NCBI GenBank assembly: GCA_024278175.1
Contig: JAJRTS010000033.1
Span: 1-64,000, forward strand
Origin: Gemmatimonadales bacterium
GTDB lineage: Bacteria; Gemmatimonadota; Glassbacteria; GWA2-58-10
Direction of reading: 5' to 3'
Length of the DNA stretch: 64,000 nt
How positions within the stretch are numbered: the first letter of the stretch is position 1; the number at the start of each line of letters is the position of its first letter. This document shows positions 4,820 through 39,907 of this stretch, in pieces. The notes below the pieces were generated by a model. It was not told where the DNA came from and did no database searches. It saw nothing but the letters and a program-made list of their open reading frames with translations. Made by a program: the position numbers and the translations under genes.

Positions 4820-5140
4820 TTAGTTATGATTCGATAAGCCATTCTGTTCTTTAGACTTCTGACGATACCTAGAACTAAGAATATCATTAAGAAGACGTTT
4901 GTCATAATCGAGAATATTCCTTAACTCCAGTTTGCTCCGAAGTTCCTCGCTCGAATACTTGAACGCAAGCTTACCAAAAGCCTCGTCAATAAAAGAAACT
5001 GAAGCCACTTCAACATTATTGAAATCAACAAAAAATCTATCTGTTTTACTCCAATTCTCTTCAAGCAATATTCTAATGATTTCTCCATCGTCCCTTGTGA
5101 CAGTTCTTTTTCTGCATTTATCCTTGAGGTCAATAAGCAT
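4820..5140 (-). CDS. STAS-like DUF4325 domain protein
   Basis: This 106-residue protein carries the short alpha/beta pattern of DUF4325, a STAS-like domain (RFFVDFNNVEVASVSFIDEAFGKL, residues about 33-56). STAS domains bind partner proteins and in anti-anti-sigma factors are switched by phosphorylation. The start at 5140 is set by a strong RBS (AAGGAGGT, 7 nt upstream). It lies 13 bp after a gene for a GHKL-type ATPase, the same partner class as the kinase/anti-sigma proteins that act on STAS domains. The cassette is visibly AT-rich against GC-rich surroundings, which suggests recent transfer. The process it controls is not known. Confidence 0.75.
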   Translation of the reverse strand: MLIDLKDKCRKRTVTRDDGEIIRILLEENWSKTDRFFVDFNNVEVASVSFIDEAFGKLAFKYSSEELRSKLELRNILDYDKRLLNDILSSRYRQKSKEQNGLSNHN

Positions 5141-5153
5141 GTCTACCTCCTTA

Positions 5154-5879
5154 TTAATCAAAGATCGGGATTTCCTCATCTGCAAGGAAATACCGCCCCT
5201 CTTTATCGATGTTAATAACTATATTTATAATAGTGCCATTAAAGAATTGCTTATTTTTGTTTTTCTTAATTTTTTCCTCACCTCCACGATAATCCCACAT
5301 TACTTTTCCCAAACCTGACACTATATATACTTTCCCCTCATTCACTTTAGCAAATTTAAGAATATGATTCAAGCCCAGTCCAGCAGCATGGTCTCTACTT
5401 GTTACGCCTTCCTCAACTGATTTTATAATAGCATTGCAGTCGTTTCTTAATCTACTGTATTGAGGGACGGTTCTCAAAGAATTAAGTATACCAATGCCTT
5501 TATCTGCGATGCATACAATCAATATTTTTTCATCTGGGTATGACTGGGCACAGACATAATAGCCACTCGCTGATTCACTATGATCAGTCACATTTGTAAT
5601 TGTTTCTAATAGCGATAATTTTAACGAACCACGGATCCCTTCAGACAACTTCAAATGTTCTTTAAAAAACCCAACTAAGTGATCCACTAATACTGGATCC
5701 AGTTTTAATCGTCTCCTTAGCTGAAGGTTCTTATGTGTAAGCTGTAAAGCATTATCAGGTTTGATTTCTTCCTCAACCGGTAGAGCAAAAAACTTATTGA
5801 ATCCGATATTAGAAAGAAACTTCTTATTTTTCTTAGAGTTAGGTGGTATATATTGCATTGCACTTGTCGTGCCAAGCAC
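5154..5879 (-). CDS. GHKL (HATPase) domain protein, 3' part of a frameshifted gene
   Basis: This frame encodes a histidine-kinase-like ATPase fold. The N-box is near residues 92-100 (E92, N96, H100), the G1 box is D126-K-G-I-G130, and the G2 box is G167-L-G169. There is no His-kinase dimerisation domain, so it is closer to anti-sigma/serine-kinase ATPases than to sensor kinases. The first 30 residues (PPNSKKNKKFLSNIGF) read like the end of a STAS-like domain. That domain begins in another frame in the upstream segment (5717-6070). The gene was probably one frame of about 305 residues, broken by a missing base in the CC run at 5845-5846. The GTG start at 5879 is therefore only nominal. The downstream neighbour is the DUF4325 protein. 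Confidence 0.7.
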   Translation of the reverse strand: MLGTTSAMQYIPPNSKKNKKFLSNIGFNKFFALPVEEEIKPDNALQLTHKNLQLRRRLKLDPVLVDHLVGFFKEHLKLSEGIRGSLKLSLLETITNVTDHSESASGYYVCAQSYPDEKILIVCIADKGIGILNSLRTVPQYSRLRNDCNAIIKSVEEGVTSRDHAAGLGLNHILKFAKVNEGKVYIVSGLGKVMWDYRGGEEKIKKNKNKQFFNGTIINIVINIDKEGRYFLADEEIPIFD

Positions 5880-6070: not shown

Positions 6071-6111
6071 TTGCTTATATTAATGGCATCTTACCAATTA
6101 ACCTCAGAATG

Positions 6112-6140
6112 GTTTTACATCTTTTATAGTTTGTTGTCAA
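6112..6140 (-). promoter_or_regulatory. Promoter for the STAS/ATPase cassette
   Basis: TTGACA (6140-6135) and TAAAAC (6117-6112) with 17-bp spacing lie about 42 nt upstream of the ATG at 6070. Confidence 0.45.
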
Positions 6141-6380
6141 GAAGATGCTGCTCATAATGCATACGTCCAAACTACTCCGCATCCTACCTCCCAATGGCAT
6201 CAACTGAGAACTCAATATAACACCACCGCCCCTTCCTGTCCAGCGCATCTGGTTTCTTTACATACACTTACCCCAACAATATCTTAAATATCAACACTGT
6301 GCAAAATCCCTGTCCGGGCCGTTGCGCCGGTTGTGCGTTACTGGGAAGCGACCTCCTTTCTTTCCGCTGGAAAGAAAAAG

Positions 6381-6409
6381 TTGACTTCCCGGCGGCCACG
6401 GGCTAAGAT
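6381..6409 (+). promoter_or_regulatory. Sigma70-like promoter for the DUF4832 gene
   Basis: TTGACT (6381-6386) and TAAGAT (6404-6409) have an ideal 17-bp spacing and lie about 65 nt upstream of the start at 6474. Confidence 0.6.
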
Positions 6410-6473
6410 TTGCCATATTCCGCACTGCAACAACGCTCACGGCGCAACAACCCTTTCAACAGGAGCTCGTCCC

Positions 6474-35652: not shown

Positions 35653-38040
35653 ATGGGCCTGGCTAAAGGAAAATACGGATATTTCGACGAGAAAAATCAC
35701 GAGTACGTAATCACCCGGCCTGATACGCCCCAACCCTGGTACAATTACCTTGTCAACGACCTGGGCTATGTTGCGCTGATCTCCCACACCGGCGGGGGCA
35801 CCAGTTTCTTCCAGAGCGCCCGCGACAAGAAAATCCTGCGCTACCGCTACAACTCGGTCCCGGCCGACCGCCCGGGGCGCTGGCTCTATCTCAGGGACAT
35901 GACCAGTGGCGACTACTGGTCCTCCACCTGGAACCCGGTACCCAAACCGGCGAGCGAGTATACTTTCCGCTGCCACGTGGGACTCAACACGCAGACAGTG
36001 ATGTCCACCTATGCGGAGATTGCCAGCCGGCTCACTTACTTTGTGCTTCCCCGCCGCCCGGCCGAGGTCTGGCTGGCGCGGCTGACCAACACCGGAGACC
36101 GCAAACGGATCATCCACAGCTACTCCTACGGCGAGTTCAATTTCTGGGGCACGCTTCGCGACCTGCTCAACCTGGACAACTGCCCCAAGTGCAGCCGTTA
36201 CCATCTCGATGGCGATACGATTGTCCACGACACCTACAACGACCTGGGCGACAACCTGGACAACATGCAGTGGGTCAGGCATTTCGCCGGATTCCGTTCT
36301 TCACATAAGCCATACGCAATCAACCCGGAGCGGCAGGAGTTCCTCGGTGATATCTGGAGAAGCGAGAGCAACCCGCTGGTGGTCGAGAGCGGCCGCGACA
36401 GCAATTTCGAGGGCAGCGGAGACTACCCGATCTGCGGCCTGACCCATCGCTGGGAACTGCAACCGGGAAGTAGCGTGGAGTTCGCGTTCGTGCTGGCGTT
36501 CGGTAACAACGAGGACGAGATGCGCCGGGGACTGGAGGCCGCCGGGAATATTGAGGAACTGCGGGAATCACTTGAGCAGGTAAAAGAGCGCTGGAGCGAG
36601 CGACTCTCGTTCTTCCAGACCGCCACGCCGGAGAAGGAGGATTTCGATCCGTGCGTAAATACATGGAACCAGTACAACGCCTATATCAACGGCCTGCTCT
36701 CCCGCTCGATTTCCCCCTACAACTGGGGTGCAGACCGTGGACTGGGTTTCCGCGACACCCTGCAGGACCTGATGGGCGTCTGCCACAGCGAGCCGGAGTT
36801 CGCCAGGCAGCGGTTCCTGATGATGGCCGGGCTGATCCACAGCGACGGGATAGCGGCGCATAATTATTTTCCGCTCACCGATACGCCCGACATGCGCGAT
36901 TTCTTCGACGACCATCTCTGGCTGCCGTTCACTGTGGCCCGCTACCTGAAAGAAACCGGCGAGATGGGCCTGCTCGAGGAGCGAGTCCGTTTTGTCGACG
37001 GCTCAGGGTCGCAGAAGCTGATCGACCGGCTGGAACTGGTGCTCGACACCACCTGGCGCCTTCGCGGCAAACACGGCCTGCCCCAGACCGGCCACGCGGA
37101 CTGGAACGATGGGCTGAACCCCGGTTCGATGGAGAGCGAGAGCCTGTTCAACGCCATGCTGTTCTGCGCCTCCGCCCGTGAATTGGCGGCTATCGCCGAG
37201 TTCACCGGCCGAAACGAGCTGGCCGCCAGATGCCGTGAGCGCTACGAGGAGATGAAAGAGCTGGCCAACACCCACGGCTGGGACGGCCAGTGGTACAGGA
37301 GAATCCTGCTGGCCGATGGCGGCTGTATTGGTGGCAAAGATGTTTCTCCGGGCAGCATCTTTCTGGAGCCGCAGGTATGGGCCGTGATCGGCGGTGTGGC
37401 CGAGGGTGAGCGGGCGCGCACGGTGATGGACAGCGTGTACAAGCATCTGGCCCGCAAGCACGGGATCAAGCTGCTGGACCCGCCCTACACCGACTACGAT
37501 CCCAAGTGGGGCTCGATCAGCATTTTACTGCCCGGCCACAAGGAGAACGGCGCTGTTTTCTGCCATGCCGCCAGCTGGGCCGTGGTGGCCGAGGCAATCC
37601 TGGGCAACGGCTCCCGTGCCTGGGACTATTACAAGCGGATGGCCCCCACCACCAACAGCCGGATCGCCGAGGTCCACGAGACCGAGCCCTATGTGTACAG
37701 CCAGCATATCGCCCAGGAGCCGTTCCACAAGATCGGCCGGGCGCGCAACAGCTGGCTCACCGGCAGCGCCACCTGGTTCACCCTGGCCGGGCAGCAATAT
37801 ATCCTGGGAGTACGGCCTGAACTCGGCGGTCTTTTTATTGATCCAACCATTCCAGGCTGGAAAGAGTTTCGTGTTACCCGCAAGTTCCGCGGCGCTACAT
37901 ATGAGATAGAAGTCACCAATCCCGGCGGCGTGGAGCGCGGAGTGAAATCAGTTACAGTCGATGGCAAGGCAATCGAGGGCAACCTGGTGCCGCCTGCCCG
38001 GGCCGGGGCCACAGTGAAAGTGGAAGTTGTGATGGGCTGA
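35653..38040 (+). CDS. GH94 glycoside phosphorylase (cellobiose/chitobiose phosphorylase-like)
   Basis: The 795-residue cytoplasmic enzyme has the GH94 layout: an N-terminal beta-sandwich (about 1-280), a helical linker and an (alpha/alpha)6 barrel. RGLGFRDTLQDLMG, then HADWNDGLN with the general acid at about Asp486, and HKENGAVFCHAASW near the phosphate site are all present. GH94 enzymes split beta-linked disaccharides with phosphate, giving a sugar 1-phosphate and a free sugar, which saves ATP. Which disaccharide is used cannot be read here. GGAGAG lies upstream of the ATG. The divergent sulfatase suggests use of oligosaccharides taken up after desulfation. Confidence 0.88.
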   Translation: MGLAKGKYGYFDEKNHEYVITRPDTPQPWYNYLVNDLGYVALISHTGGGTSFFQSARDKKILRYRYNSVPADRPGRWLYLRDMTSGDYWSSTWNPVPKPASEYTFRCHVGLNTQTVMSTYAEIASRLTYFVLPRRPAEVWLARLTNTGDRKRIIHSYSYGEFNFWGTLRDLLNLDNCPKCSRYHLDGDTIVHDTYNDLGDNLDNMQWVRHFAGFRSSHKPYAINPERQEFLGDIWRSESNPLVVESGRDSNFEGSGDYPICGLTHRWELQPGSSVEFAFVLAFGNNEDEMRRGLEAAGNIEELRESLEQVKERWSERLSFFQTATPEKEDFDPCVNTWNQYNAYINGLLSRSISPYNWGADRGLGFRDTLQDLMGVCHSEPEFARQRFLMMAGLIHSDGIAAHNYFPLTDTPDMRDFFDDHLWLPFTVARYLKETGEMGLLEERVRFVDGSGSQKLIDRLELVLDTTWRLRGKHGLPQTGHADWNDGLNPGSMESESLFNAMLFCASARELAAIAEFTGRNELAARCRERYEEMKELANTHGWDGQWYRRILLADGGCIGGKDVSPGSIFLEPQVWAVIGGVAEGERARTVMDSVYKHLARKHGIKLLDPPYTDYDPKWGSISILLPGHKENGAVFCHAASWAVVAEAILGNGSRAWDYYKRMAPTTNSRIAEVHETEPYVYSQHIAQEPFHKIGRARNSWLTGSATWFTLAGQQYILGVRPELGGLFIDPTIPGWKEFRVTRKFRGATYEIEVTNPGGVERGVKSVTVDGKAIEGNLVPPARAGATVKVEVVMG

Positions 38041-38096: not shown

Positions 38097-38720
38097 TTAC
38101 AATGCAATATCAGCTAAAGTTTTGAAAAATCTATTGCAATAGCTTGCTTTGTTACGGACAACAGAAGGGTCCAATAATGCAATAATGTCCGGGGCATGTC
38201 TGGTTTTGTGGTATTTGCCTTTGTCGGTTCTTCTTGTCGCAGCTCTTAGATTCACATCGAGAGTACGCTTTGATAAAGCTTCAACGCTTTTTATCAAACT
38301 AAAATATTCTGATTTAAAATTTGTTGTACCGTAGAACGTCTCCAAGGCCTTGACATCGGCAGCTATCCATGCTTCCATATTTTGAACCATCAATTGACAT
38401 TGCACATCTTCCAAACCACTGATATCCCAACGATCATATTTCTCAAGGTGCAACCAGGGATTTGAATGCTCCACAGGACACTCTGAATCAACCAGTAGAA
38501 TAATTATACAATCCGGATTTGAGCGCCGAGCCCTTTGAAAATCATTAAAAGCGTCACCTCGCCCACCACAGGAGATAAATGAAATCTTGCTTTTTACCTG
38601 ATCGCCTAATGATGCATCTTTTTGCACAAAGCTCTTAAAACCCCTTCTTAAGCGAATATGTACATCTGTATTACCCGGTGGCCCACCTCCCTCTACATAA
38701 ACTCTGATTTCTTTCACCAA
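38097..38720 (-). CDS. DUF4276 TOPRIM-like protein, second gene of an AAA pair
   Basis: The 207-residue protein matches DUF4276: an acidic start VYVEGGGPPGNT, the block SCGGRGDAFNDFQRA, the acidic pair in IILLVDSECPV, and VQNMEAWIAADVKALETFYG. These acidic residues are laid out like a TOPRIM metal site, suggesting nuclease activity. The gene overlaps the end of the AAA gene by 7 bp and starts at GTG with GGAGGT upstream, so they are translated together. AAA plus TOPRIM/DUF4276 pairs resemble abortive-infection modules such as AbiL- or PARIS-type systems. It is AT-rich compared with its neighbours. Target and trigger are unknown. Confidence 0.8.
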   Translation of the reverse strand: MVKEIRVYVEGGGPPGNTDVHIRLRRGFKSFVQKDASLGDQVKSKISFISCGGRGDAFNDFQRARRSNPDCIIILLVDSECPVEHSNPWLHLEKYDRWDISGLEDVQCQLMVQNMEAWIAADVKALETFYGTTNFKSEYFSLIKSVEALSKRTLDVNLRAATRRTDKGKYHKTRHAPDIIALLDPSVVRNKASYCNRFFKTLADIAL

Positions 38721-39907
38721 AGGTTACCTCCGATTTCTCCTTTCAGCCATAATTGTCCTAAAGAATATTCATCCAACCACTCTTTCAAGTTTTTTTTGTT
38801 CAAACGCTTAAATGCCGTACCTGTCATTTTTTTCTCACACACAATAACTGCTTCAGGTATATCATTAAATTGTGAAATCAAAATATCAGAATGCGTAGTA
38901 ACTATTAATTGCGTTTCCTTTGATGCCTCTATCATTAAGCGCGCCAACTCAGGAAGAAAATCAGGGTGAAATCCAAATTCAGGATCTTCAATACATATTA
39001 GCGGCGGTGGGTCCGGGTCACACAATATTGCAAGCAGGCACAGAAGCTTAATGGTTCCATCTGAGGCCCTGTACAAGGGCACTGCTTTTTCCAGATTTCT
39101 TTCCTGAATATAAACATTTAACGTTTGCTGCTCAGATTTGACTTCAAAATCCTCAAAATAAGGATTAAAAATTTCCATAATTTTCATCATTCTACTTTTT
39201 GTGGCCCTATCGAGTTTCAATTCGCTTAACACATTTGCCAAATTTGTGCCATCTTCATATAGATGGTCAGACTCCTGCCCAGATTTATGAGGCATCCGAA
39301 TAGGTGCATTCCGTCCTAAATTCCAATCCGAATATATTATCATTTTCTTAAAATTTTCAGAGAGAAAGTATAATTCCGGATACCTTTTTGAATCCTTAAA
39401 TTGCTCAAACACCGAACGTGCGGTGCTTATTTCATTCGAATCCAGCTTTCTCCATCCACGTTTATCTTTTCCCAATAACCAGGCCTCTCCATTCTTATAA
39501 TAATAATCACTATTTTCCAAAAATGATTTATAGTTTTTTTTACTTTCTAAAGTAATCACTTCTTCTTCTATACCTGGTTTTTGTCCTATTGCCCCTACTA
39601 CAATCTTGTAAAAAAGATAGTTATTTGGATACCAATCATGCTTAACAACCGTTTCTATTCCAAAATTATTTTGATCAGCAGCGCCTTTCCATATTAAATC
39701 TCCAATTCCTCCAGACTTATTGATCCCCTCGTATAGCCCCATAACCGTCGATTTAAGGATGCCAATTGCTTCAAGAAAATTTGATTTCCCAGAAGAATTC
39801 GGACCAATAATAACATTGAGCGGTTGCAATTCAATTTCCTCAAACTCTCCGCTGAAACTAAGAAAATTCCAAAGCCTCAAAGATTTTATAAATACTTTGC
39901 CTTCCAT
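38714..39907 (-). CDS. AAA ATPase (AAA_21/RecF-like) of a two-gene cassette
   Basis: The 397-residue protein opens with a RecF/SMC-like N-terminus (IKSLRLWNFLSF) and Walker A GPNSSGKS (residues 35-42). The Walker B block LICIEDPEFGFHPDFLPEL and the H-loop TTHSDILISQF lie near the C-terminus. The middle is an insertion of about 200 residues without known motifs. This is the OLD/AbiL-type ABC-ATPase architecture without the TOPRIM part, which is supplied by the overlapping DUF4276 gene. The start at 39907 follows TTGGAGAT; a TTG 12 nt earlier is less likely. AT-rich composition suggests transfer. Confidence 0.85.
   Translation of the reverse strand: MEGKVFIKSLRLWNFLSFSGEFEEIELQPLNVIIGPNSSGKSNFLEAIGILKSTVMGLYEGINKSGGIGDLIWKGAADQNNFGIETVVKHDWYPNNYLFYKIVVGAIGQKPGIEEEVITLESKKNYKSFLENSDYYYKNGEAWLLGKDKRGWRKLDSNEISTARSVFEQFKDSKRYPELYFLSENFKKMIIYSDWNLGRNAPIRMPHKSGQESDHLYEDGTNLANVLSELKLDRATKSRMMKIMEIFNPYFEDFEVKSEQQTLNVYIQERNLEKAVPLYRASDGTIKLLCLLAILCDPDPPPLICIEDPEFGFHPDFLPELARLMIEASKETQLIVTTHSDILISQFNDIPEAVIVCEKKMTGTAFKRLNKKNLKEWLDEYSLGQLWLKGEIGGNLW

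Follow-up and report, generated by a model that had tools for sequence, protein, structure and literature searches.

The AT-rich gene pair described here is, judged from its sequence, a horizontally acquired member of HEC-01 (Hma-embedded candidate 01), a catalogued candidate anti-virus system whose mechanism is uncharacterised, and is not a new type. In the window, by which we mean the whole stretch of 64,000 nucleotides analysed, an ATPase gene (HEC-01A) is followed by a gene for a DUF4276 protein (HEC-01B; Table 1), and each product is a full-length match to its PADLOC profile: the ATPase to PDLC04177 (443.6 bits, 1.5e-133; residues 5-397 on positions 3-393 of 393) and the DUF4276 protein to PDLC04201 (205.9 bits, 1.2e-61; residues 1-204 on positions 1-198 of 202). 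Pfam assigns AAA_21 (1.6e-32) and AAA_15 (1.2e-20) to the former and DUF4276 (1.8e-18) to the latter. The earlier note had searched no databases and thought that the pair might be a distinct type; these matches lend that suggestion no support, the partners being the same, adjacent and overlapping, and nothing sets the window pair apart from HEC-01, which forms one sequence cluster (PDLC04177/PDLC04201). A difference lies in its surroundings: the window pair stands alone, outside any Hma operon.

HEC-01 is widespread, a scan of 84,980 species genomes having yielded 184 loci, and finding another copy is ordinary. What this locus adds is a clean, recently acquired copy with an empty-site comparison, in a lineage, probably of the Gemmatimonadota, for which we know of no experimental phage biology. 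A guilt-by-embedding preprint (Payne et al. 2024, doi 10.1101/2024.01.29.577857, as cited in PMC12988326) is the source of the Hma-embedded candidates; several of these, including HEC-06, are reported to be active (PMC12988326), and HEC-01 is named in a genome survey (PMC12724379). The literature searched held no antiviral test of HEC-01 and no mention of DUF4276 by name.

Table 1. Features of the HEC-01 locus, in window coordinates
Feature	Position	Strand	Description and basis
ATPase gene (HEC-01A)	38714..39907	-	397 aa from ATG; ORF list, Pfam, PADLOC profile
DUF4276 gene (HEC-01B)	38097..38720	-	207 aa from TTG; ORF list, Pfam, PADLOC profile
Overlap/coupling element	38714..38731	-	read from sequence; homologue overlap distances; GG codons invariant
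Foreign AT-rich segment	38041..39988	.	flanked by a GH94-type gene and by a DHH-like phosphoesterase gene; 178 bp in same-genus genome

Both genes were confirmed as reverse-strand open reading frames. The ATG of the ATPase gene has a GGAG 6 nt upstream, and its TGA stop (38714-38716) lies inside the start region of the DUF4276 gene, for which there are two candidate start codons: a TTG at 38718-38720, giving a 7-nt overlap and 207 aa, and a GTG at 38715-38717 (inside TGG TGA), giving a 4-nt overlap and 206 aa. Among 77 homologues measured the overlap at this junction is 4 or 7 nt in 74, the -7 start occurring in 39 and the 4-nt overlap in 35. The GTG is weakened as the preferred start by homologues with ATG at -7, and the 7-bp overlap given in the earlier note, which holds if the TTG at 38720 is used, is plausible because several homologues start at -7 with MVKEIR, the same residues as here.

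A Shine-Dalgarno sequence, GGAGGT, at 38726-38731 is formed by the codons GGA GGT in the tail of the ATPase gene, and the two glycines that they encode are invariant across 67 homologues. This placement makes translational coupling of the DUF4276 gene to the ATPase gene likely. The ATPase ends in LWLKGEIGGNLW; in the conserved form of this terminus, IGGxRW-stop, the codons include a GGNGG element resembling a ribosome-binding site together with the DUF4276 start codon, and the conservation of the protein there may therefore partly mirror a function of the nucleotides. Promoter-like and terminator-like sites at the locus showed no clear excess over shuffled sequence.

The pair is foreign to its surroundings, as its composition, the empty site in a relative and its place in the tree together indicate. 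Its GC content is 37.7% against 58.9% for the window, where it forms the lowest 1.8-kb stretch, and its GC3 is 33-35% against 75-83% in the flanking genes, in agreement with the first description of the pair as more AT-rich than its neighbours. In a genome of the same genus the sequences homologous to window positions 38035 and 39989 are only 178 bp apart and DUF4276 is absent, and thus the pair is a recent insertion, acquired from outside. A tree built from 80 DUF4276 proteins places the window copy in a supported 21-row group (99/91) with proteins from Cyanobacteriota, Pseudomonadota and others, apart from the Gemmatimonadota rows; its exact place there is unsure because its own branch is long. 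No convincing repeats bound the insert. The same gap holds a MazE/MazF pair in one other family member, a TPR protein in another and an M23-peptidase-like gene (read by eye) in a third; with occupants that differ in this way, the stretch separating the GH94 gene from the DHH-like gene is a variable-cargo site. The GH94 gene itself, full length in the window, is cut to its two ends in the same-genus genome (internal deletion, ~6078-6457). Elsewhere in the window, at 4820-5879 on the reverse strand, lies a second AT-rich overlapping pair (GC 36%, GC3 32-38%), which encodes a GHKL ATP-binding-like protein without a Pfam match and then a STAS-like DUF4325 protein, and which may be another acquired cassette.

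Association of the two genes is conserved well beyond this lineage. Of the 184 loci we kept the best 80, and all 79 with upstream sequence have the ATPase gene next to them, upstream and in the same orientation; the 80th begins at a contig edge and hence stands outside the count. These paired homologues, on whose existence the earlier note had made its defence reading depend, span Chloroflexota, Acidobacteriota, Pseudomonadota, Cyanobacteriota, Myxococcota and others. Within the phylum DUF4276 is patchy, being found in 38 of 395 genomes with up to five copies per genome, and loci of its other subfamilies there have an ATPase gene directly upstream in every case with an available flank that we examined.

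The immediate neighbours of the window-type pair elsewhere are diverse and mostly ordinary genes. Among 136 near genes a few are type I restriction-modification (RM) subunits or methylases, against hardly any among 93 distal genes, a weak signal of RM excess, and no strong defence-island enrichment for the window type was found in this comparison. More distant relatives, on plasmids, are more informative. On a Meiothermus plasmid (1170-4778) the operon of a type I RM system reads HsdS, DUF4433, macro domain, ATPase, DUF4276, HsdR; one RM system encloses two nested modules of a defence or toxin kind there, the DUF4433 protein being DarT-like. On an Aeromonas plasmid the pair has a methyltransferase gene on one side and a DEAD/DEAH helicase gene on the other, an Hma-like layout; the Acinetobacter pair comes after vapBC on a mobilizable plasmid of 11 kb, and in Piscirickettsia it is alone on a plasmid, while one further plasmid ATPase match is without an annotated DUF4276. 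Plasmid records with a relative of the ATPase number 260, including 171 that are conjugative; five of the 260 were examined, so that the figure of 260 is no measure of pairing with DUF4276. No window-type pair was found in IMG/VR or phage records, nor any window-type DUF4276 effector on plasmids.

These distributions bear on the idea that the two proteins are a DNA-repair or housekeeping pair without a role in conflict. Such a role would be in keeping with the RecF/SMC-like fold of the ATPase and with window-type neighbours that are mostly ordinary genes, but the patchy occurrence in the phylum, the absence from the same-genus genome, the foreign composition, the plasmid carriage and the embedding in RM operons all argue against it, and we regard it as very improbable.

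Turning to the proteins themselves, HEC-01A reads as an ABC ATPase of the OLD/AAA_15/AAA_21 type, with Walker A (GPNSSGKS), signature-like (ASDG), Walker B/DE (IEDPE) and H-loop (TTHS) motifs whose residues are invariant or nearly so in the homologue alignment. AlphaFold models the whole chain with a pLDDT of 94 as an SMC/Rad50/PtuA-like head, and structure search matches the model to the heads of SMC, Rad50 and PtuA. The insertion of about 200 residues without known motifs, once read into this protein, proved to be a region ordinary for HEC-01A: the profile covers residues 5-397, and this full-chain coverage, with the single confident fold, excludes a novel inserted domain.

The case for a TOPRIM fold in the DUF4276 protein is less direct. 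Counting residues from the GTG start, E9, D77, E115, W117, D121 and Y169 are invariant in 80 of 80 DUF4276 sequences, and E79 and K171 are each conserved in 78. In the predicted model (pLDDT 96; strands 4-8, 45-49, 71-76 and 107-109) beta1 is followed by E9, beta3 by D77 and E79, and beta4 by E115, as in the TOPRIM order beta1(E)-alpha-beta2-alpha-beta3(DxD)-alpha-beta4 with its conserved acidic residues. Sister DUF4276 subfamilies carry hEG, DxD and ExW motifs, the DxD position being DxE in the window protein and DxY in several sister subfamilies and in the second copy of this genome. Among viral folds the model is matched best by an RloB-like protein (prob 0.99, E 0.006), and in hhalign comparisons of DUF4276 with 24 RloB sequences the hEG, DxD and ExW motifs fall in register (P 0.0006-0.0012, probability 20-29%), the profile score being 29-31, whereas 20 column shuffles reached 16 at most; against an RloB profile built from three sequences only, the match is not significant. 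RloB is itself reported to be related to OLD_TOPRIM by HHPred (PMC10440598). Against this, Foldseek gave no PDB match to the model at E <= 0.001 (the best, at E 0.02, is a cutinase), so that no solved TOPRIM protein was significantly matched, and no solved homologue was found by sequence. Weighing the motif order, the strand order of the model, the DxD of the sister subfamilies and the RloB link against the departures from DxD and the lack of a significant PDB match, we hold the TOPRIM assignment to be probable: the original TOPRIM reading, to be given up if the predicted structure lacked a TOPRIM metal site, holds in part, motif order and topology agreeing with it and no solved TOPRIM being matched significantly. 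The protein is most likely a metal-dependent TOPRIM nuclease, and the conserved residues named here make the idea of a TOPRIM effector directly testable.

Comparison with known systems places the pair near, but outside, several of them. AbiL (AbiLi ATPase with AbiLii/RloB) has the same two-gene order and overlap and a related ATPase (profile alignment E 1e-12, including the C-terminal GxxGG), and the hEG/DxD/ExW motifs are common to DUF4276 and RloB. Yet the window ATPase scores 83 bits with the AbiLi-type model PDLC02335 against 444 with HEC-01A; DUF4276 and RloB are separate Pfam families joined by a weak profile link, and the window effector matches DUF4276 alone in Pfam, with no RloB match. 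PARIS (AriA with AriB/DUF4435) shares the split architecture of ATPase and TOPRIM protein, and the ATPase profile, which also matches retron PtuA, OLD and GajA, matches solved AriA at E 1.4e-10. The PARIS effector is DUF4435, however, whereas that of the window is DUF4276; AriB was not among the fold matches listed for the DUF4276 model, and DUF4435 has no match in this genome. The difference in effector family rules out either label, PARIS or AbiL, for the pair. The effectors of OLD, Gabija (GajA) and retron Eco8 also unite an OLD-type ABC ATPase with a TOPRIM nuclease, but theirs is a fused domain of the OLD-like_TOPRIM family, whereas in the window pair it is encoded separately, by a gene from a different family: the 397-aa window ATPase ends after its ABC head, and no OLD-like_TOPRIM match was found in this genome.

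We suggest, tentatively, that DUF4276 could be one more branch of the split TOPRIM effectors, diversified independently of AriB/DUF4435 and RloB/AbiLii and recognisable by the acidic signature hEG, DxD/E/Y and ExWxxAD. The conserved ATPase C-terminus (LWxxGE-I/L-GGxRW-stop) would then do double duty, ending the protein and providing a built-in ribosome-binding site from which the effector is translated, with sensor and toxin made in a fixed ratio, and trigger and target would be unlike those of PARIS. We put this forward as a possibility on which the balance presently leans towards doubt.

A phage-defence module, as first proposed, is in our view the best reading of the locus, because an ATPase and a TOPRIM-like protein are combined in a horizontally acquired pair, the pairing is conserved and members of the family lie inside restriction and Hma-like operons. 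We think it reasonably likely that HEC-01 is such a module of the abortive or toxin-antitoxin-like type, triggered by infection, with the ATPase as sensor and the DUF4276 protein as TOPRIM nuclease; that the effector acts as a nuclease, that the ATPase neutralises it and that the outcome is abortive, as well as the trigger and the target, we argue by analogy with AbiL, PARIS and AAA-TOPRIM pairs. A dimer or higher oligomer of the ATPase would hold the nuclease inactive and serve as sensor; an infection cue, which might be a phage protein or a phage DNA structure, would be detected by it, and an ATP-dependent rearrangement would release or activate the nuclease. This would cut cellular nucleic acid, tRNA or other RNA being likelier than DNA by analogy with AriB, the PARIS effector, which is a two-metal TOPRIM RNase cutting tRNA-Lys (PMC12409363). 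Phage replication would stop, and usually the cell too. An AbiLii is a toxic effector (PMC3985639). Two observations count against this reading: in a single test AbiLii was not neutralised by AbiLi (PMC3985639), and the genes next to the window-type pair in other genomes are mostly ordinary.

The same arrangement could instead be a toxin-antitoxin or addiction module and no more: the toxic DUF4276 nuclease would be neutralised by the ATPase, addiction or plasmid stabilisation would keep the pair in place, and antiphage activity would be absent or incidental. The overlapping genes with the antitoxin-like one first, the MazEF pair in the same genomic slot of a relative and the DUF4276 pairs on plasmids, one beside vapBC, are in keeping with this, and AAA-TOPRIM pairs behave as toxin-antitoxin pairs when scored in E. 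coli (PMC10440598). Nevertheless we consider it unlikely: plasmid relatives sit in RM and Hma-like operons, the HEC-01 family was catalogued through its embedding in defence systems, and the size of the ATPase and its conserved ABC catalytic motifs suggest sensing more than simple neutralisation.

Less probable again is a DNA nuclease of OLD/Gabija kind, where the ATPase would bind phage DNA ends or nucleotides and DUF4276 would nick or cut DNA in a degradative, non-abortive defence. The resemblance of the ATPase model to SMC/Rad50 heads and PtuA points that way, as does the cutting of DNA by OLD-family TOPRIM domains such as that of GajA (PMC10440598; PMC12409363). On the other hand AriB, the split-gene TOPRIM relative whose target is known, cuts tRNA (PMC12409363), and the closest relative that we found for DUF4276 is RloB/AbiLii, of which an AbiLii is a toxic effector (PMC3985639).

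This genome also carries a second, divergent HEC-01-like pair, on another contig (C43, 2019-3886), with an ATPase about 31% identical to that of the window. The stop flagged in this second ATPase gene as a possible frameshift is the natural end of that gene. A gene fragment near the pair (46-1485) encodes the C-terminal portion of a type I restriction endonuclease (T1RH-like_C 4.7e-140).
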